Assembly (NCBI GenBank): GCA_903936705.1
Contig: CAIZWN010000044.1
Location: 1-64,000, forward strand
Reading direction: 5' to 3'
Length of the DNA: 64,000 bases
DNA from: an uncultured Myxococcales bacterium
Lineage (GTDB): Bacteria; Myxococcota_A; UBA9042; DTJE01
Positions within the stretch are counted from its first letter, which is position 1; each line of letters starts with the position of its first letter. The notes under the pieces are model-generated. The model was not told the origin of the DNA. It ran no database searches and was given only the letters and a program-made list of their open reading frames with translations. The position numbers and the translations under genes were made by a program. Below are positions 25,513 to 42,707 of this stretch, in pieces.

Positions 25513-28350
25513 TTACTTGCTGCGCTTTCGGCGTTTCGTCGGCACTCGCGGCGGCGGTTCCAATTCCAATCGGCCGGCACCTTCGAGAACAATGTAACGG
25601 GCAAGCAGCACGTTCAGGCGATCGGAGTCGCTGGCGAAGCGCTTTCGTGGGACGTAAGAGGCGTCAACCGCACGATCGAGTTTCTCATGGGCACGAACCA
25701 GAGCGGGTGGCATGGAGTTTTCCCCATACAGGTCGTCAAGGGTTGATGTGGCCTGTGACGCTCGGACATCGAGAATCTCTTGGGCAGCGATTTCGATCTT
25801 GTCGATCAATGTCGCGTTGATATCAGCGAAGGGGAATGCGTTGTACGCGAGGTCTGGCGCCAACGAGTATCGCGTTTCAAGGCGACCAACGATCGTTCGC
25901 ACCCAGGCCATGAACATTGACGACTGCAGTACGCCGAATAGCCAGAGAGGCGCGTTCTCGATCGTGATGAGTTTGTTTCCCGCAATAACTTCGGCGTCGT
26001 AGTAGCAAGCTGGGATGAACTCGCGGTTCTCGCTACTCACCTCGGGTAGCGCCAAATAGCGACTTGTTGGTTGTCTCATTTGCGAGAACAGCGACGGTGT
26101 TGATGCCTGGCGCTTTACAGCGGGCGTGTCGCAGGCTTCGCGGGTCTTGCGGACGAGATCCAACCGGTCGGCAAGGATCCGGGACTGTCGCAAGTCGTGC
26201 GCTGAAGCACCTTCAAGCCACAGGCACCAACGCTCCTTTCCGTAGAGCATTTCAGTTGTCTGGCGGAACGGCCGCAGGAATTTTGCGGCGATTGGATCGA
26301 GTTTCACCGTTGGGTAGTCGTCCGGGCCCACGATCAGGCCGCCGCCATCCCAGGGTTTGCTCCCTTGCGTGGCCTTCGGCAGACCGGGAATCAGAGGAGT
26401 TTGACGTTTCCCGGGATAGATGGAAGGGCCGTCTGCAAGGTACCAATTAATGTTCGTGGGAATCGTTTCAACCGGCTCACCGCGGAGATCTGGATAATGG
26501 AACAAGCGCTTGCGGACGGCCTTCCCTCCTTCCGAAAATCCGATGATGACAACCGTGACCTGTGCGCGACCTCTGGCCTCGCTCTTCCACTTGAAACTGC
26601 TATGGGCGAAGTCGATGCTGAAACCGTACCGATCGAGAAGGGGCCCGAGCGATCTCGCCTGCTCCCCCTGCGTGATCGAGTTAGTTGAAACAAAGGCGCA
26701 TCGCACCTTACGACCCTTGGCGTAAGCAAAAGCCTTTGCGTACCAGCACGCAACGTAGTCCAAACGGCCCGTTCGAAGCCCGCTGGCATCAATGGCCGAA
26801 AAGACAGCCCTGTTGTCGGCCTGCTGCGCCTCCGACATCCATGCCATCCCGACGAACGGTGGATTGCCAAACAGATAGTCGCACCGATCTGGTGGCAACA
26901 AGGCTGTCCAGTCGAGAGACAAGGCGTTGTCCCGTGCGATGTTTGGCGCGACCGGGATTGGGAAACGAATGAAGTGCTTTCCGAACTCTGTCGATGCCTG
27001 ACGGTTGGCCAGATGATCGGCCAGGTAGAGTGCTACCCTAGCGATCTTCGTAGGGAACTCCTCAATCTCGATGCCGTAAAACTGATTGACACGAACTTTG
27101 AACTCAAGCGTGATGTCCAGTTCAGGTTGATCCGTTCTTCGCTCTCGCACCCTGAGGCGCCGAACCGCCTCAGCCTCAAGCCGGCGTATCTCTCGATAAG
27201 CGACGACAAGAAAGTTCCCGCATCCACATGCCGGGTCAAAGAATGTCAAAGAAGCGAGTCTCTGCTGGAACGCGCGCAGTTTGGGCCTACTGTCCGCGGC
27301 TGCAAGTTGCGCCTCAAGTTCGTCCACGAAAAGCGGACCAATCGTCCTCAAGATGTTCTGCTCTGTAGTGTAGTGCGCGCCGATCTTCCTTCGCTCGGCA
27401 GGTGTCATCACGTTCTGAAACATCGAACCGAAGATCGCGGGCGAGATGATCGCCCAGTTGAACGTGCAGGCGTGCAGGAGTGCCTCACGCATAGCCAGGT
27501 CGCAAAAGGGAACAGGAAGAAGTTCGGCGAAAAGATCGCCATTGATATAGGTGAAGGCGGCAAGTTCCTCCCCAAGGGAACGGGGCCGCCTTTCAGGCGG
27601 GGTATTGAGAACCTGAAAGATCGTTCCGACCTTCGCCCCGAGGTCGGAGCCATCTGGGTTGGTGTGAACTGCAATGTAGGCGTGGAAGGCCGCCCTCTCC
27701 CAAATCCCCGTGTCGTCCGCAAACAGACAGAAAAGAACTCGCGTCAACCATTCCCGCGTTTCGTGTACGCCATACCCGTTCTCGGCCAGTAGGTCGTGGA
27801 GTTGCGCCAGAAGCTCGGTCGCCTCGAAATTCGCGTCTTCGTCACTTTCAAAGCGTTGGTGGGGGTTGTTATATCCAGCGATCCACCAGAAGAGGTCCAG
27901 ATTGTCGGGCAACTCGGCCAGCAGGAACTCACCCGGCTTGTTGGACTTCAAGTCGAACCACTTAAAGCGCTGGAAATCGCATGCGACCAGCAGCCAAGGC
28001 CGTTGCGACGGAGTCAGGCTCGTGTAGTAGTCGAGCAATTGGCCCATCGCGTCATCGAGATCCTCACCTGCACTCTTGTGCTCGACTCCCATCTGTCCCG
28101 GGTAGAGCAGGTCGACCCACCCATGCCTACCCGTGGTGGCCCTTTCCGCGATTTGCTCGAACGCGGACACCTGTTCTGCCGCGACGCCGAAGATCTCGAA
28201 GAAGCGAATCCAGAAAGTTTGACGTTGTGACTTTTCGCTTGTGGCAAAACGAAAGGCATGAGCAAACGCAACCGCGTTGGCGCGAATTGTAGATTTCGAG
28301 AGGATCGCACTCGGGTTCGATGTTGGCACCTTGACCCCTCGTGCTGGCAT
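25513..28350 (-). CDS. MmeI-like type IIL restriction-modification enzyme
   Basis: A 945-aa single-chain nuclease-methyltransferase. The nuclease motif is D80-X9-E90-X-K92 (WVDLLYPGQMGVEHKS), as in MmeI. A helical spacer leads to the methyltransferase with SAM motif I DPACGCGNF (372-380) and catalytic motif NPPF (496-499). A target-recognition region follows (KFLRPFRQTTEMLYGKERWCLWL), then a C-terminal helical part rich in basic residues. MmeI enzymes cut about 20 bp from an asymmetric site and protect by hemi-methylation. All catalytic residues are present, so it is probably active. It is the only minus-strand gene in the prophage and looks like acquired defence cargo. Confidence 0.92.
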   Translation of the reverse strand: MPARGVKVPTSNPSAILSKSTIRANAVAFAHAFRFATSEKSQRQTFWIRFFEIFGVAAEQVSAFEQIAERATTGRHGWVDLLYPGQMGVEHKSAGEDLDDAMGQLLDYYTSLTPSQRPWLLVACDFQRFKWFDLKSNKPGEFLLAELPDNLDLFWWIAGYNNPHQRFESDEDANFEATELLAQLHDLLAENGYGVHETREWLTRVLFCLFADDTGIWERAAFHAYIAVHTNPDGSDLGAKVGTIFQVLNTPPERRPRSLGEELAAFTYINGDLFAELLPVPFCDLAMREALLHACTFNWAIISPAIFGSMFQNVMTPAERRKIGAHYTTEQNILRTIGPLFVDELEAQLAAADSRPKLRAFQQRLASLTFFDPACGCGNFLVVAYREIRRLEAEAVRRLRVRERRTDQPELDITLEFKVRVNQFYGIEIEEFPTKIARVALYLADHLANRQASTEFGKHFIRFPIPVAPNIARDNALSLDWTALLPPDRCDYLFGNPPFVGMAWMSEAQQADNRAVFSAIDASGLRTGRLDYVACWYAKAFAYAKGRKVRCAFVSTNSITQGEQARSLGPLLDRYGFSIDFAHSSFKWKSEARGRAQVTVVIIGFSEGGKAVRKRLFHYPDLRGEPVETIPTNINWYLADGPSIYPGKRQTPLIPGLPKATQGSKPWDGGGLIVGPDDYPTVKLDPIAAKFLRPFRQTTEMLYGKERWCLWLEGASAHDLRQSRILADRLDLVRKTREACDTPAVKRQASTPSLFSQMRQPTSRYLALPEVSSENREFIPACYYDAEVIAGNKLITIENAPLWLFGVLQSSMFMAWVRTIVGRLETRYSLAPDLAYNAFPFADINATLIDKIEIAAQEILDVRASQATSTLDDLYGENSMPPALVRAHEKLDRAVDASYVPRKRFASDSDRLNVLLARYIVLEGAGRLELEPPPRVPTKRRKRSK

Positions 28351-31395: not shown

Positions 31396-32361
31396 ATGAC
31401 CCGAGTGCTGGACCTGCTACTGAACCGCGACCACCTGGAGGCCCACGACCTGACCGACCGATCCCTGTGGCTGGCCGCGCGGCGCACCGGCCTGGGCGGT
31501 TCCGACCTGGTCCGCGTCATCCACAAGCCCCGCGAGTTGTGGCGCGAGAAGACCGGCCGCGCCGACGGCTTCACCGGCAACCCCCTGACCCGGATGGGCC
31601 TCGCGCTCGAATCCCACATCCTGGCGGAATGGGCCGTTGTGGAGAAGGCCGAACTGATCCGCCCCATGCCGTTCCTGCGGGATCGGGAGCGACCCTGGCG
31701 ATGCGCCTCGCTGGACGCGCTGGCCCGGATGCCGGGCGGCCGGATCGTCATCGTGGACGCGAAGTACAGCACGCTCGACTGGCAGGGGCAGATCCCGGAG
31801 TCCGCGTTCCTCCAGATGGTCTGGTACATGGCCGTGACCGGGATCCACGAGGCGCACATCGCCCGGATGGACTTCCGCGGCGAAATCGTCTCGCTCGATC
31901 CCATCTCCTTCGACCCGGCCGAGGCGGACGCGTACCTCGAGGCCGCGGACGACCTGTGGCAGCACGTGGTGGACGACCGGGAGCCTGACGCGGGCGACGG
32001 CGAGGCCGGCGTGGAGGCGCTGTCGGACCTGCGCCGCAAGTCGCTCGTCCCGAGGATGGACGCCAGCGAACTGATGCTGGCCGTCGAATCGGAACTGGCG
32101 GCCCTGGAACGGGAGGCGAAGGCGGCCGAGGCGCGGGCCAAGGCGCTGAAAGACAGCATCGCAGAGCAGATGAACATGCACGGCGTCCAGCGGATCGAGT
32201 TCCCGGACGGGGCACGGTGGACGTTCAAGGAGAAGCGCGGCAGCCCGTCGTGGAAGGAGTACGCGCTGTCGATCGGGGGGACCGAGAAGGGAGCGGAGGC
32301 GTTCCGGGGCAAGGGCTCCGCGTACGTCGAAACCAAGCACGCGCAGGCAGAGGAGGCATAG
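31396..32361 (+). CDS. YqaJ-family (lambda exonuclease-like) recombination nuclease
   Basis: A 321-aa protein. The N-terminal 200 residues show YqaJ motifs: WLAARRTGLGGSD (27-37), MGLALESHIL with E72, D107 in CASLDAL, the D121-A-K123 catalytic pair in IVIVDAKYS, and a QMVWYMAVTG helix. This 5'-3' exonuclease makes single-strand ends for annealing. The C-terminal 110 residues add a coiled coil (ALEREAKAAEARAKALKDSIAEQMN) and a strand region common in phage YqaJ proteins. GGAGG lies upstream. The next gene probably encodes the partner annealing protein. Confidence 0.9.
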   Translation: MTRVLDLLLNRDHLEAHDLTDRSLWLAARRTGLGGSDLVRVIHKPRELWREKTGRADGFTGNPLTRMGLALESHILAEWAVVEKAELIRPMPFLRDRERPWRCASLDALARMPGGRIVIVDAKYSTLDWQGQIPESAFLQMVWYMAVTGIHEAHIARMDFRGEIVSLDPISFDPAEADAYLEAADDLWQHVVDDREPDAGDGEAGVEALSDLRRKSLVPRMDASELMLAVESELAALEREAKAAEARAKALKDSIAEQMNMHGVQRIEFPDGARWTFKEKRGSPSWKEYALSIGGTEKGAEAFRGKGSAYVETKHAQAEEA

Positions 32362-33822: not shown

Positions 33823-34635
33823 ATGGTCCAGACGAAAGCACAGAAGGACGTGGAACTCGATGTGAAGCCACTGGACGAGGGAATGATCGCCTGCGCGATC
33901 CTCGGCACCAGCCCGATTATCCTCTATCGGATGTCCGAGAAGGGCGCGCGGGAACTTCTCTTCCCCGCGGGAAGGAAGACGGTTGCCGATCGTGCCGCAA
34001 CCATGAAGCACGACCCCATTGCAGAGTTCAAATCGTCTCCCTACACCCGCGATTTCGGGGAGACCTACCTCACGCACCTCGGGACCGCATTCAAGGGGGC
34101 AATCAGCGGTGCGGCGATCGACATGCCCGGCGCGAACAAGGCGCAGATCGGGCGTCTTCTCCAGGTCGAGGACGAGTTCGTGCCGATCTACGGGATCCCG
34201 AAGCTCCACATGGCGATCGTTCGGTCTGCGGACATCAACCACACCCCGGACGTCCGGACGCGGTGCGTGGTCCCGGAATGGGCCAGCTACATCACGATTT
34301 CGTTCGTGCGCCCGCTTCTGAACGAACAGACGGTCGCGACCCTCCTGCACGCGGCGGGCATCATCCAGGGCGTCGGCGACTTCCGCCCTGGCAAGGGAAA
34401 GGGCACCTACGGCAGGTTCCGGATCGTCCGGACCAACGATCCTGATTGGGTGCGGATCACGAAGGGCAGCAGCCCCGAAATGCAGCGGCAGGCGATGAAG
34501 GACGCCGTGCCCTACAACGCTGAGGCGGCAGAACTTCTCGCGTGGTTCAAGGAAGCGAAGATCCGCCGGAACAAGGCGCCGTCCGCCGCCGAGGTCGTGG
34601 AGCAGGCGGAAGCCAGCGGCATCGAAAGCACCTAG
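33823..34635 (+). CDS. Conserved phage early protein of unknown function
   Basis: A 270-aa protein from ATG 33823. The sequence looks well structured (ACAILGTSPIILYRMSEKGARELLFPAGRK, TYLTHLGTAFKGAISGAAIDMPG, LLQVEDEFVPIYGIPKLHMAIVRSADINHTPDVRTRCVVPEW, GAGKGKGTYGRFRIV-like GKGKGTYGRFRIV). It is beta-rich with a short basic Gly/Lys loop. Homologues usually accompany YqaJ and annealing proteins in phages as far as I can recall, which suggests a role in recombination or replication. It is followed directly by the pentanucleotide array. Confidence 0.65.
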   Translation: MVQTKAQKDVELDVKPLDEGMIACAILGTSPIILYRMSEKGARELLFPAGRKTVADRAATMKHDPIAEFKSSPYTRDFGETYLTHLGTAFKGAISGAAIDMPGANKAQIGRLLQVEDEFVPIYGIPKLHMAIVRSADINHTPDVRTRCVVPEWASYITISFVRPLLNEQTVATLLHAAGIIQGVGDFRPGKGKGTYGRFRIVRTNDPDWVRITKGSSPEMQRQAMKDAVPYNAEAAELLAWFKEAKIRRNKAPSAAEVVEQAEASGIEST

Positions 34636-34925
34636 CGCGGCTGGCGCGGCAGGCTTGAACTGGCCGGGCGAGGCGCGGTTGGGCCAGGAATGGCAGGCGT
34701 GACCGGGAATGGTCTGGCCGGGCGAGGCGGGCACGGACAGGCGCGGACGGGCGTGGAAGGGCCAGGCGTGGAATGTCGAGGCAGGCATGGATAGGCCGGG
34801 CGACGCGAGACCTGGTGCGGCGAGGCGGGCGAGGCTGGGATCGGAAAGGCGAGGCAAGGCCTGTTGAGGCAGGCATGGCCGGGAATGGCGAGGCCTGGCG
34901 CGGCGAGGCGGGGCACGGCAGGCGA
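34636..34925 (+). repeat. Degenerate GGC pentanucleotide array with about 44-bp superperiod
   Basis: From just after the stop at 34635 to the ribosome binding site of the next gene, GG starts fall every 5 bases for about 59 units. About 40 units are GGC, 10 are GGA and 3 are GGT; the two following bases vary. The phase slips to a 4-base step at about 34652, 34696, 34730, 34784, 34828, 34872 and 34921, always at GGCAGGC or GGCGGGC, most often 44 bases apart. A further slip occurs at the very start (34639-34643, GGCTGGC). The plus strand is very G-rich. No reading frame or hairpin explains it. See findings. Confidence 0.9.
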
Positions 34926-34936
34926 GGGGGTTGCAA

Positions 34937-35410
34937 GTGAAAGATCGTGACGCGGTACAGGAAGCGCTCGAATCGATCCGGAAGGCGCACGCCGGAATCC
35001 TTCGGGCCGAGGACGTGGTCGATGCGGCGGCGGACCGGGAGAGCCCGCTGCATCAGCAGTTCTTGTGGGACGACACCGAGGCCGCCCGCCAGTTCCGACT
35101 GGTGCAGGCGCGGAACCTGATCACGGTGTTCGTCCAGGTCCTTCCTGGCCCGTCGAAGGACCCGGTCCAGGTCTACGTGAGCCTGACGGCCGACCGCCGG
35201 GAAGCCGGCGGCGGCTACCGGCTAATCCACGACGTGCTCGCGGACCCGGAAATGCGGGCGCGGTTCCTGGACGAGGCGCTGGCCGACTTCAACCGGGCGG
35301 AAGCCAAGTACGGGCGGCTTGTCGAACTTGTCCCGGTGTTCGTTGCGGTTCGGAAGGTCCGGGTGAAGCGTGGGGCCAGGACCAGGGCTCATGATCGGGT
35401 GGCAGGATGA
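34937..35410 (+). CDS. Unrecognised phage early protein
   Basis: A 157-aa protein. I prefer the GTG at 34937, six bases after AGGGGG, over a TTG at 34931. The N-terminal part is helical (DAVQEALESIRKAHAGILRAEDVVDAAADRE), then a strand-rich part (LITVFVQVLPGPSKDPVQVYVSLTADRREAGGGYRLIHDV) and basic C-terminus. It immediately follows the array. Its stop overlaps the next small frame. No family identified. Confidence 0.65.
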   Translation: MKDRDAVQEALESIRKAHAGILRAEDVVDAAADRESPLHQQFLWDDTEAARQFRLVQARNLITVFVQVLPGPSKDPVQVYVSLTADRREAGGGYRLIHDVLADPEMRARFLDEALADFNRAEAKYGRLVELVPVFVAVRKVRVKRGARTRAHDRVAG

Positions 35411-35754
35411 TGGTCGATCGGGGAGCTTCGAAACGGCGCCAGGAAGAGACGGAAATCGACCTGGGCGAAGTGCGGCTCCCCCTTGCTGGTGGCGGGTTTG
35501 CGCTCTATTCCGTTCGGATTCGAGGTAGGGTGTCTCTGGTGGACGCGGAGAACTCGGAATGGCCTGTAAAAACAACGGAAATCGGATTATCGGCCCCTAC
35601 TTCGACCGGCGGCGAGGGAACTGGTATTTCACCGAGATTATCGACGGCGCGAGAACGTGGGTTCCTATCCCAGGATGCGAGAATGAGAACGAAGCGCGCG
35701 AGCACGTCGAAGGAGCCAGGGACCGGCTCGCAGCGCCGACCGTCGATACCTTGA
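35407..35754 (+). CDS. Possible short gene overlapping the integrase start (doubtful)
   Basis: An ATG at 35407 overlaps the preceding stop and opens a 115-codon frame. Only the first 50 codons (EIDLGEVRLPLAGGGFALYSVRIRG) look protein-like and lie outside the integrase. The remaining 65 codons overlap the integrase and have shadow-like composition. A real short protein may be read here with a fortuitous C-terminus; translational coupling to the integrase is an alternative explanation for the overlap. Confidence 0.35.
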   Translation: MMVDRGASKRRQEETEIDLGEVRLPLAGGGFALYSVRIRGRVSLVDAENSEWPVKTTEIGLSAPTSTGGEGTGISPRLSTARERGFLSQDARMRTKRASTSKEPGTGSQRRPSIP

Positions 35755-36797
35755 ACGATGCGGTGGGTGCGTTCGTGAAGCACATTGCGAGCGATGGCGG
35801 CAACGCCTCGTCGGTGTCCTTCGCCAAGGCGGCGCTGGCCCCGCTGGTGAAGGCCCATGGCGACGCGACCCTGAAGCGGTTCTGCGGGGCATGGCTGGAC
35901 GAGTACCTGACGAACACGGCAGATCGCTCGATGGCCAGTCGGCGGTCCTACTGGAAGGCGCTGGTCCGCTTCGCGACCTGGATCCGGAAGCGGGGGATGA
36001 TCACCCGGGACGTCGTGGCGGAAGCCCTCCGGGAAAGGGAACGCCAGGACAAGATGCTTCCCTGGCGAACCCGCGACGGCGCCCGGGAGGTCGGGCGCGG
36101 GAAGGTCCAGCTGCGGAACCAGAGCGAGGTCGTAGCGTACCTCGAAACGGCGCTGGCCCTGGGCCCGCACCAGAGGGCCGCGAAGAAGGACCGCCAGCGG
36201 GTGGCGGACGAACGCCGGGTCGCGTCCTGCCTGCCGCTCCTTTGCGGGCTGGCGTCGGGCGAGGTCCTGCACCTGAAAGTGGGTGATGTGGACTTGGCCT
36301 CGTCCGTTGGGTATGTTCGTGATGCTGGAGCCGCCGAGGTCGACGGCTGGCACGTGAAGCGGGACTCGCGGACTGGCGAGTGGGAAGTCCCGGAGGCGCT
36401 GCGAGAGAGCCTGGGACGGCTGACGGCCGACCGCGCTTTCGACGCGTACCTCCTGCACGATGGCAGCGGTAGGCCGCACCAGCGCGCCTGGCTTCGGGAT
36501 CTTGTAGTCGAGGTCTGCCAGGCTTCGAAGGTTGACGGGCAGCCGATTCGGACGGTCCCGCCGCACGGCTTGCGCGGAACCTGCGCGACGCTGCAGCGGG
36601 TGCTGGCGAAGCGGTCGATCGGTGATATTGCGGCGATACTGCGGCACGGGGATAATGGTCGGGTCGCGGCGAGCCACTACGTCGGGGTGCCGGAACGCCG
36701 GCAGGCCCTGAAAGTGATCGTAGGTGGCAAGAAGATCGGCGCCCGGACGGGCCAGAATTCTGTCCAGGGTGGTTTGAAAGCGGTGGTTGATCGTTAG
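35559..36797 (+). CDS. Tyrosine recombinase (phage integrase) lacking the first catalytic arginine
   Basis: A 412-aa integrase. An arm-binding-like N-terminus (GPYFDRRRGNWYFTEIIDG) is followed by a SAM-like core-binding domain and a catalytic domain with HGLR (H336, R339), RHGDNGRVAASHYV (H363, nucleophile Y374). In the box where the family has GLR-x-x-E, the sequence is GLASGEVLHLKVGDVD, so Arg I is replaced by Ala at 232. This should impair cleavage, or the arginine is supplied elsewhere. The gene ends 82 bases from the 3' end of a tRNA-Pro gene, the presumed attachment site. Confidence 0.9.
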   Translation: MACKNNGNRIIGPYFDRRRGNWYFTEIIDGARTWVPIPGCENENEAREHVEGARDRLAAPTVDTLNDAVGAFVKHIASDGGNASSVSFAKAALAPLVKAHGDATLKRFCGAWLDEYLTNTADRSMASRRSYWKALVRFATWIRKRGMITRDVVAEALRERERQDKMLPWRTRDGAREVGRGKVQLRNQSEVVAYLETALALGPHQRAAKKDRQRVADERRVASCLPLLCGLASGEVLHLKVGDVDLASSVGYVRDAGAAEVDGWHVKRDSRTGEWEVPEALRESLGRLTADRAFDAYLLHDGSGRPHQRAWLRDLVVEVCQASKVDGQPIRTVPPHGLRGTCATLQRVLAKRSIGDIAAILRHGDNGRVAASHYVGVPERRQALKVIVGGKKIGARTGQNSVQGGLKAVVDR

Positions 36798-36872: not shown

Positions 36873-36879
36873 TAACCCG

Positions 36880-36954
36880 TCGGGGCGGTCAGATTCGAAC
36901 TGACGACCCCTTGACCCCCAGTCAAGTGCGCTAACCAGGCTGCGCTACGCCCCG
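36880..36954 (-). tRNA. tRNA-Pro (anticodon GGG)
   Basis: The minus strand folds into a full cloverleaf: acceptor CGGGGCG with CGCCCCG, D-arm GCGC/GCGC, anticodon stem CTTGA/TCAAG with loop CTGGGGG (anticodon GGG), and T-arm GTCAG/CTGAC with TTCGAAT. The discriminator is A and CCA is not encoded. Its 3' end faces the integrase, so this gene is the likely integration site, regenerated by the prophage end. Confidence 0.96.
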
Positions 36955-39480: not shown

Positions 39481-40659
39481 TTACCTGGCCTGGCGGAATG
39501 CCTCATCGACCTGCTTGGCAAGACGTTCGTAGACCTGCTCGCGCGAACCGGTGCCTTCGACTATCTGCAAACGCCTGGTTTTTTCATAATAGCTGTCGAT
39601 CTCGCTGGCATAACGCTCGTGATCCTCCAGGCGCCGGACGATTGTTTCGGTGCTGCGGTCGTACTGCAAAGCGCGCTCGGTCGATCCCCTGAACGACAGA
39701 CGGCGGAACAATTCGAGAGTGGGCACCCGCAGGTCAAGAATCGTGGAGACGCGTTGCCCGATCTTGCGAAGCATGCCGTCAAGAATGTAGGCCTGGACCA
39801 ACGTCCGCGGAAACCCCTTGAAAATAAGGCCGTTCTTACCAGGGTGCGACCGGATATAACCTTCGACCACACGGATGACGATCTCGTCCGGAACCAGGGC
39901 TCCCTGAGCCATCAATTCCGAGATCTGGGTCGCCAGAGGCCCACCCTTGGCCGCAGCCTCCCGAAGCAGATCGGTCGTCGAAATGTAGTGCAGGTTGTAC
40001 TGCTCGGCCAGCAGGCGCGCCTGCGTGCTGCGGCCTGATCCAGGCGCCCCAAGCACGACGACGTTAAGCTGGACCAGGCGCAACGACTTGTCCACGGCAG
40101 TGGTGATCTGGTCGAAGACGCCATCAACGCTGGTCGTACCGTCAACCGAAACCAGGATCCCTTTCTCCTCGTAGAAGCCCAGCACTGGCGCCGTCTTTTC
40201 GCCGTACTCGCGCAGCCTGAATTGAATTACATCGCGCTGATCGTCGGCTCGTCCGGATGTACCGGCCCGCTCAAGAAGGCGTTCAATGCAGGCCTCAACC
40301 GGGACCTGGATGTTGATCAGGTTCATGAGCGATGTGTGCATCTTCAGCAGCAGGCCCTCCAGGATGTAGGCCTGGACCGATGTTCGAGGAAAGCCATCGA
40401 ACAGAAAGCCGCGAGCGTGCGATTGCTCGCGGATCTTTCGAATGGTCTTTTCCAGCAGCTTGACGATCAATTCGTCCGATGCCAGACCGCCCTTCTCGAT
40501 GACCGACTTGACCGCATGACCGATGTCGGTGCCATCGCGGATCTCGTCTCGCAGCAACTCACCGGAGGAAATGTAGTGCAGCTTGTAGCGCTCGACCAAC
40601 CGGGCGGCCTGGGTCCCCTTTCCAGCACCGGGGGGTCCGAAAAGTGCGATATTGAGCAT
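39481..40659 (-). CDS. Tandem (fused) adenylate kinase-like protein
   Basis: A 392-aa protein starting at ATG 40659. Domain 1 (1-195) is a complete short-lid, AK1-like adenylate kinase: GPPGAGKGTQ (8-17), SSGELLRDEI, DGFPRT (88-93), and AGTSGRADDQ. Domain 2 (198-392) repeats the layout (GAPGSGRSTQ 204-213, STTDLLREA, KGFPRT 281-286) but the P-loop Lys is Arg210, and the DG of the AMP box is changed to KG. Domain 2 is therefore probably a pseudo-kinase or has different specificity. It is convergent with the decarboxylase, three bases apart. Confidence 0.88.
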   Translation of the reverse strand: MLNIALFGPPGAGKGTQAARLVERYKLHYISSGELLRDEIRDGTDIGHAVKSVIEKGGLASDELIVKLLEKTIRKIREQSHARGFLFDGFPRTSVQAYILEGLLLKMHTSLMNLINIQVPVEACIERLLERAGTSGRADDQRDVIQFRLREYGEKTAPVLGFYEEKGILVSVDGTTSVDGVFDQITTAVDKSLRLVQLNVVVLGAPGSGRSTQARLLAEQYNLHYISTTDLLREAAAKGGPLATQISELMAQGALVPDEIVIRVVEGYIRSHPGKNGLIFKGFPRTLVQAYILDGMLRKIGQRVSTILDLRVPTLELFRRLSFRGSTERALQYDRSTETIVRRLEDHERYASEIDSYYEKTRRLQIVEGTGSREQVYERLAKQVDEAFRQAR

Positions 40660-40772
40660 GATGTTACCTCGCAGCGCAGGCCGCATTGTAGACTTAAACT
40701 CCTGCCGCCAGTGTGCAAGAGTGGCAAGTCCCTGTCGCCTCAGCGATTGGACGTCTGGGCGCACTGGTCCGA

Positions 40773-42707
40773 CTAGCAACCGAATCGTTTTCTTTGGCCA
40801 TCAGGCAACCGGATTGTCACGTGCTTCGAGTCGAACCATTCAGCCAGCGGAATCGCCGTCCGGCGCGTCGTCGCCAGAAGGTCCTTCAACTGGGCCGTGG
40901 TGATACGGCCATTACTGGCCAGGAAATCCAGAAGGCGCCGTTGAACATCCTCCAGAACGAGGGCATCGAAATGCAAGTCACCCGAGACTCTCACAACGAT
41001 GCCGCTGCCAACCAATTCCTGAAGGGCATCCTTCGCTGCCTGCGCCGCAAGACCGGCACCGACGGCAACCTCCTGAATCGGTGGCGCCGACAAGCCCGCT
41101 GCCCTGATGAACGCGGACACACGTTCAAGCGCCATGGAACCAAGACGCACCCCGCTAGTCGAATGGGCCGGCAATCTCCAGGTCGTGCCTTCGGCAACAA
41201 CCTGTTGCGACGCAGCCAGGAATCGCAATGCAACCTCGAGTGCCTCGCATGGTGGTCGCGACGGCAGAAGCCCTCGCAGCAATTCGACCGTCGCACCCGA
41301 GCGCTCCGGATGATGTTCATGAGCCTTGGCAAGAGCCGAAAGCAACGAGGCCGCCAAACCGGCCAGGACCTCCGGGCCGATGTATCTGGTCCTGCCATCC
41401 AGAAGAAACGGCGATATTCTGCCCGTCCCGTTCAGGGTGGAAACCGCCCGAACAAGCTGGCTGCGGCCCACCGGACCAATTGCAAGCAACTCATCGACGG
41501 TCGCTCCCGACGAGCCCGACAATTCAATGCACGCCAGAACCTTGTGCAGGGTGTCGCCATTCGTCATTTCGCGCAGCCACGAAATGGCCTGCACGTCGGA
41601 TTTACGTCGTACCGGGGCGTCCGGCCGCAGAACCACGCCGCCTCCAAGGGTCCTCCCGAAGCCCTCCAGAACATCGAATCCCCTGATCACGAAACTCTCG
41701 CCAGCAAGGGCAGCAACTGGCTCGGACAAGCGCAACTGTCCGATGGCCTGCGCGCCGGGTTCAAGTGAGTCCGAATCCAGCAGCACGACATGCCCGGATA
41801 TCATCCTGGTGCCAAGGTGAACGGTACATGCGGTCCGGCGCTTGAACGGCTTCCGGATTCTCGCAAGCAAAGTGACCGATACGTCGAGCACGCGCCCCGT
41901 CCGCATTCCTTCCGGCGACGTGACGACCTCGCCACGTGGAATCGTTTGGGCATTCAGGCCCTGCAGATTCAGCGCAACACGCATGCCAGCCGACGCCGAA
42001 TCCACTTGCTGCCCGTGCTGCTGGATTGATCTGATCCTCGCCGTGCTGCCCGAGGGCAGCAAAACAACCTGATCTCCCGTTCGCAAACTTCCCGCGGTCA
42101 CCGTACCCGTGGCAACCGCCCCGAAACCGGCAGCAACGAACACCCGGTCGATACCCATGCGGAAGGGGCGGTCCGAAGGCCGCTGGGGCAGGCATGGAAC
42201 CAGCGATTTGACCGTCTCGATGAATTTCAGGCGAAAGCCTGCCAGTTCCTGAAGTCGCGGCGCGGCAAACTCCAGCATCGGCGCCCCGGCCATGAAAGTC
42301 CCCTGAAGGGCCGAGGCCACGTCTTCCCTGGCCAGAACCACGTCCTCGGCAGGAATCAGGTCGCAGCGAGTCAACACGACAAACCCGGACTGGACGCCGA
42401 CCAGCCCCAGAATGTCCAGATGCTCGCGAGTCTGCGGCATCACGCCTTCGTCAGCCGCAACCACCAGCACGGCCAGGTCGATGCCGCCGGCACCGGCGAT
42501 CATGTGCCTGACGAAACGTTCATGTCCCGGCACGTCGATGATTGCAGCTGTTGTACCGTCCAGAAGGTCAAGATGCGCAAACCCAAGTTCGGTGGTTATG
42601 CCTCGTTCCTTCTCGATCGGAAGGCGATCCGTGTCGATGCCAGTCAGACAGCGCACCAGTGTAGTCTTGCCATGGTCGATGTGACCGGCGGTCCCCAGGA
42701 CGATCAA
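40773..42707 (-). CDS. selB: Selenocysteine-specific elongation factor SelB
   Basis: A 644-aa SelB. The GTPase domain has G1 [12 protein letters not shown], the SelB-diagnostic [37 protein letters not shown] and a modified G4 (LTRCDL). EF-Tu-like domains 2 and 3 follow, and C-terminal winged helices ([43 protein letters not shown]) bind the SECIS hairpin. I choose the TTG at 42707, which overlaps the upstream stop as TTGA and places the first residue just before the P-loop; longer starts are implausible. No selA, selC, selD or selenoprotein gene was seen in the window. Confidence 0.93.

Follow-up and report, generated by a model that had tools for sequence, protein, structure and literature searches.

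A probable VIPR system with a continuous, tetramer-divided guide array in a prophage of an uncultured Myxococcales bacterium, and its predicted targets in rival mobile elements

Introduction

The closest counterpart of the locus reported here is VIPR, which was described in 2026 in a preprint (PMC13142463). In that account the protein Vipr binds vrRNAs of 9–16 YNNGG repeats, whose NN dinucleotides pair with double-stranded DNA while one base is skipped per unit. Repression by VIPR was demonstrated in E. coli and the natural targets are mostly competing phages; in the targets of the Escherichia phage SUSP1, guides match the sense strand so that NN falls on the first two bases of each codon and the skip on the wobble base (PMC13142463). 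Vipr is defined as a single-RRM RAMP homologue of about 20 kD, and the systems occur mainly in phages and prophages. In type II (SUSP1, P. fulva) each repeat tract is followed by an invariable, structured 3′ tail, and types III and V have nucleases as vipr-accessory proteins (vaps) (PMC13142463). Staggered arrays with overlapping vrRNAs are also named in the preprint.

Here we analyse a stretch of 64,000 nucleotides, called the window throughout, from an uncultured Myxococcales bacterium (GCA_903936705.1, contig CAIZWN010000044.1, positions 1–64,000; source genome 4.85 Mb in 84 contigs). A prophage in the window very probably carries a VIPR system consisting of Vipr, a six-block guide array and a probable accessory protein, with targets in rival elements. 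The locus resembles that of SUSP1 in its homologous Vipr, in the GGY/NN pentamer array adjoining vipr, and in a reading of targets with a 1-nt skip that leads to competing mobile elements, in the window by sequence match. It differs in that in SUSP1 most units are GGT, the vrRNAs are discrete and bear structured tails, and long sequences separate the arrays, whereas the window array is GGC-based, tail-less, continuous and divided by GGCR tetramers; the SUSP1 accessory protein (ALH47068) also differs from the phrog_15946 partner found here. The type II tail is absent, there being no sequence between the blocks and only 5 bp up to the next open reading frame (ORF), and we do not assign the locus to VIPR type II. 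A more distant analogy is offered by the RAMP proteins of Class 1 CRISPR systems (Csm3/Cas7), which share the predicted fold and, it would seem, the logic of a filament built on a guide RNA, although repeats, spacers and cas genes are absent from the window system and its guide is non-contiguous.

Results and discussion

The array and its divisions

The array occupies positions 34636–34925 on the forward strand, starting directly 3′ of the stop codon (34633–34635) of the gene at 33823–34635 and ending 5 bp before an ORF at 34931. It comprises 58 GGY/NN units, with seven GGCR tetramers. A dynamic-programming parse places the 58 units over 34643–34925 and assigns them to GGC (39), GGA (10), GGT (3) and degenerate forms (6), GGY units making up 42 of 58; this agrees with the roughly 40 GGC, 10 GGA and 3 GGT counted in the preliminary description. 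The five-base GG periodicity on which that description rested is present in clear excess, with 19 GG pairs at lag 5 against 4.5±2.1 in 1000 dinucleotide-preserving shuffles (maximum 12) and 21 at lag 10 against 4.6±2.1 (maximum 11), and a scan of the whole window found nothing close to it elsewhere.

The tetramers (GGCA or GGCG) start at 34648, 34692, 34726, 34780, 34824, 34868 and 34917. They are the seven one-base phase slips recognised earlier, each of which had been placed at the first base of the following unit. Successive intervals are 44, 34, 54, 44, 44 and 49 bases. The 44-base interval first emphasised does not amount to a constant super-period, since arrays of other phages differ in how many pentamers separate their tetramers, 7–12 being commonest. 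The window array consists of one unit before the first tetramer, six blocks between tetramers (8, 6, 10, 8, 8 and 9 pentamers, numbered 2 to 7 here) and one unit after the last. Across many arrays GGC is dominant and NN diverse, and the degeneracy of the pentamers, formerly taken as such, is better read as information carried by the variable dinucleotides.

The element is intergenic and strand-asymmetric, as had been proposed. The earlier view that it is not a hairpin needs some correction: its RNA folds somewhat better than shuffles do (z = −3.6), though no single defined hairpin stands out. A scan limited to sigma-70-like promoters and terminators found none near the array, and the sole Rfam match in the window was a tRNA.

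The adjoining genes

The gene that ends where the array starts (33823–34635, forward strand, 270 aa) belongs to the phrog_4652 family and, on a profile match and a structure model, encodes a predicted Vipr, a RAMP (Cas7-like) protein. The preliminary description had placed a putative annealing protein next to the array, but the partner indicated by these results is a RAMP protein. A profile of 77 family proteins, all of which matched phrog_4652, found SUSP1 Vipr (PDB 36pp, 36pp_D) at E = 7e-40 as its only clear match among solved proteins. The model is confident (pLDDT 92.9), and Foldseek searches with it led to Csm and other CRISPR RAMP subunits. The protein exceeds the single-RRM norm of about 20 kD because of a C-terminal helical extension in the model. 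No PADLOC model matched Vipr, and our searches among named bacterial genomes revealed no vipr. In a same-genus genome there is a homologue 27% identical to the window protein (G002:C126:47072-47680, L159), but our search detected no GGC array near it; this homologue may be served by another repeat unit or be a relic.

On the other side of the array, the ORF at 34931–35410 (forward strand, 159 aa; start codon uncertain, TTG at 34931 or GTG at 34937) belongs to phrog_15946. Members of this family adjoin vipr or the array in 27 loci, which makes the product a probable vipr-accessory protein. It did not match SUSP1 vap1 (ALH47068), the only vap compared, and has no Pfam or PADLOC match. Its model (pLDDT 94) matches no known structure significantly, winged-helix proteins being among the weak matches.

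Arrays of the same design in other phages

When phage records were searched sensitively at the DNA level, matching tracts turned up in the early regions of Cheoctovirus mycobacteriophage genomes and of the cyanophage Cy-LDV1, bearing out the impression in the preliminary description that similar tracts occur in other tailed phages. The gene 5′ of the window array shares phrog_4652 with Saal gp51, and the gene 3′ of it shares phrog_15946 with Cy-LDV1 g33. Cheoctovirus phages (Saal, Donkeykong, Brocalys and others) have GGCNN/GGCA arrays, a Vipr homologue 32–34% identical to that of the window and a vap homologue, but their array lies upstream of vipr, their blocks often hold 11 pentamers (a 59-nt period) and the flanking genes are annotated as hypothetical. 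Cy-LDV1 likewise has Vipr and vap homologues, but carries an array on each side of vap, infects another host and has other neighbours, with bet and an exonuclease downstream.

Arrays of the window design are widespread. Scanning viral contigs with the DNA pattern (GGCNN)x7 returned at least 120 stretches. A strong array was present in 100 of the contigs, and 78 of these encode a vipr homologue of the phrog_4652 family, separated from the array by a median of 15 bp and sharing its strand in 76 cases. By comparison, only one to three loci each yielded close relatives of the window exonuclease, of the window's phrog_3657 protein and of Cy-LDV1 Bet. Some of the other array-bearing contigs also carry simple repeats such as ACACAC dinucleotides.

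Several further features of these arrays were observed. Some loci (L123, L062, L047, L026, L105) hold two or three arrays on one strand, split by vipr or vap genes. In four Cheoctovirus arrays (L001, L002, L005, L006) some blocks are near-identical and others different, a pattern that, judged by sequence, appears to document how closely related phages have naturally gained and lost guides. One array (L078:1956-3536, reverse strand) is broken by a recurring non-pentamer element, approximately GGCACGGGAGCAGCAGCATCCG...AAGGATGGAC, and is perhaps an instance of the ribozyme-interspersed type that the VIPR preprint names (PMC13142463).

Targets decoded with a one-base skip

To decode the array we applied the published 1-nt skip (PMC13142463) to its variable dinucleotides and searched 14 genomes of the order and 379 genomes of the phylum. 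Four of the six guide blocks thereby match candidate targets in genomes of the same family. All four guides match the sense strand in the codon register described for SUSP1, in which NN covers positions 1 and 2 and the wobble base is skipped. Their targets lie in relatives (of the family and, for block 5, also of the genus), not in the host genome itself.

Block 4 (34730–34779, forward strand; ten units, AC CA GC CG GT AG CA GT AT GA) gives the pattern ACxCAxGCxCGxGTxAGxCAxGTxATxGA. Among the 14 order genomes it matched at 19/20 in four places within two same-family genomes, three in G004 and one in G010, and all four lie in one gene type, encoding a small recombinase-associated HTH protein (TRARVSQVMD; phrog_14161). 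No match at one mismatch or fewer was found elsewhere among the 379 phylum genomes, and the reversed control gave none. The target encodes an HTH motif, which is common in general and counts against this assignment. Block 7 (34872–34916, forward strand; nine units, AT CG AT GA CT GC GA GG AC) matched at 16/18 in the same gene in G004, 160 bp from the block-4 site (RRIDLAEGT), units 2–9 being perfect and unit 1 wholly mismatched. Block 6 (34828–34867, forward strand; eight units, GA TG TC AA GA AA CT GA) matched exactly (16/16) in a large terminase (GpA) gene (DWSKDNLD) on a 15.9-kb contig of G004, with no second match in the 14 order genomes. Blocks 4, 6 and 7 converge on this one contig, whose genes include those for a serine integrase, a DUF2924 protein, the small and large terminase and an excisionase-like protein, and which is therefore a prophage or a piece of one.

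Block 5 (34784–34823, forward strand; eight units, AT TA CG GA GA CT GC GA) matched exactly (16/16) in two homologous large serine recombinases (integrases), in G002 and G004, which differ from each other at wobble bases. In G002 the target lies near ordinary chromosomal genes, as an integrated element would. In the genome search the true block-5 pattern had four matches at one mismatch or fewer, two of them exact, and the reversed pattern had one. By sequence, the putative natural targets thus lie in prophage contig genes and serine integrases, as the published preference for competitors predicts.

The scores of blocks 4, 6 and 7 on the target contig were compared with those of 3000 shuffles of the units and 3000 of the letters for each block and with decoys, namely 170–237 real tetramer-delimited blocks from other arrays. 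The scores of block 4 (19/20) and block 6 (16/16) were reached by no shuffle, and that of block 7 (16/18) by one unit shuffle and no letter shuffle. Decoy maxima were 16/20, 14/16 and 15/18 for blocks 4, 6 and 7, respectively. Skips of 0, 2 and 3 bases gave background scores only.

No credible target was found for block 2 (34652–34691, forward strand; eight units, TT CT CG GA GC TG CA AT) in the 14 genomes, where its one-mismatch match contains an in-frame stop and the reversed control also had one match. None was found either for block 3 (34696–34725, forward strand; six units, GT CG AT CT CG GA), which is too short for assignment. Several other matches were set aside: one of block 4 in the window's own genome with three mismatches (chance level), further block-7 matches with two mismatches (scattered) and further one-mismatch matches of block 5 in genes unlike integrases. 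In the viral contigs block 4 had no match and block 7 one exact match (L136); the 18 block-5 matches there are about chance level for 16 bases, and two exact partial matches of Saal block 2, whose flanks showed no extension, were judged to be chance. A comparison of 1652 ten-unit guides with the first-fetched loci gave no skip-1 excess, as expected for unrelated contigs.

What the tetramers may delimit

For blocks 4, 6 and 7, a small set of three, the target match continues beyond the block on neither side, which suggests that the GGCR tetramers probably delimit guides. We extend this tentatively, at somewhat less than even confidence, to a general rule in which GGCR punctuates continuous tail-less VIPR arrays into independent guides of mostly 7–12 units with one target each. 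If so, a single transcript would supply multiple guides, in the manner of a CRISPR array, and the splitting rule would let many phage arrays be decoded.

The frame shifts may instead represent the staggered design named in the preprint (PMC13142463), in which case vrRNAs would overlap across the tetramers and these would mark no guide boundary. The window blocks, at 6–10 units, are indeed shorter than the 9–16 reported, but the arrest of three matches at both block ends speaks for separate guides, and we regard overlap as the less likely arrangement, though one with a real share of the probability.

Proposed mechanism and alternatives

The identification of the locus as VIPR is directly supported by the array itself, the homology and fold of Vipr, the association of arrays with vipr, and the guide–target matches under a 1-nt skip. 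From these we infer transcription, processing, binding and repression, as follows. The array would be transcribed (with vipr) and yield vrRNAs, on which GGY triplets would seat Vipr protomers every 5 nt, one per pentamer, and GGCR tetramers would form the guide ends. The NN dinucleotides would pair with double-stranded target DNA, one target base being skipped per unit. Complexes would bind the serine integrase, recombinase-associated regulator and large terminase genes of competing prophages and mobile elements, and so block transcription of the genes with which rival temperate phages integrate and package their DNA. The multi-protomer binding track suggested in the preliminary description thus very probably survives, each subunit covering 5 nt and the predicted binder being the product of 33823–34635 in place of an annealing protein; the CsrA sponge, packaging signal and origin also suggested there give way to a guide RNA as the molecule that would matter.

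Some features count against a VIPR reading. Ten GGA and six degenerate units stand where GGY is expected, the blocks are short relative to published vrRNAs, block 4 has one mismatch and block 7 a first unit that fails to match at all, blocks 2 and 3 are without a target, and there is no SUSP1-like 3′ tail. The lack of a sigma-70-like promoter or terminator near the array in the scan for those types, and the position of the targets in relatives of the host, also weigh on this side.

Repression is the most likely outcome for the target genes, since no nuclease was recognised beside vipr. Destruction of the target by a nuclease acting with Vipr has a precedent in the nuclease vaps of types III and V (PMC13142463), but the product of 34931–35410, with neither a Pfam nor a PADLOC match and a confident model that resembles no known fold significantly, makes this unlikely. 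Far less probable still is a binding track for phage recombination or annealing proteins, nucleating on the 5-nt periodic sequence by the YqaJ exonuclease gene. A YqaJ/RecE-type exonuclease does lie at 31396 in the window, and bet and an exonuclease lie a few genes from the Cy-LDV1 array; the constant neighbour of the arrays, however, is vipr, not the exonuclease, phrog_3657 or Bet relatives, and such a track does not predict variable dinucleotides that match genes of other phages, so that the target matches strongly disfavour it. Equally improbable is a functionless tract, either a pentanucleotide microsatellite in decay or a low-complexity sequence that arose by chance, with coincidental target matches: the degenerate units and the ACACAC-type repeats of some array-bearing contigs would suit it, but the periodicity lies far above shuffles, the same design recurs in many unrelated phages beside one protein family, and neither shuffles nor decoys reproduce the matches.

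The preferred reading, a VIPR system, would constitute an independent case that was recognised from raw DNA without the published method and in a bacterial lineage remote from E. coli. Applied to this array, the 1-nt skip code yields predicted natural targets, with strong statistics, for four of the six blocks, namely terminase, integrase and recombinase-associated genes of rival prophages.

Prophage setting

The window contains genes for a head protease, tail sheath, tape measure and baseplate, and has an integrase beside a tRNA-Pro gene, consistent with the occurrence of VIPR mainly in phages and prophages; within the best explanation, the element that hosts the locus is a temperate myovirus-like prophage. 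The phage integrase gene (35559–36797) adjoins the tRNA-Pro gene (36879–36954), which probably provides the site of attachment. Window base 1 is also the first base of the contig, so the sequence may not include the opposite end of the prophage. A search with a decarboxylase gave mostly betaproteobacterial matches, at 79–88%, which did not identify the host because this gene may have been acquired by transfer.

Two further genes of the window were observed. A type IIG restriction enzyme-methyltransferase (25513–28350, reverse strand; PADLOC REase_MTase_IIG, E = 1e-292) adjoins phage genes and is possibly a second anti-competitor system. At 39481–40779, on the reverse strand, a single ORF holds two adenylate-kinase-like halves in tandem, the DNA repeat being 71–76% identical.
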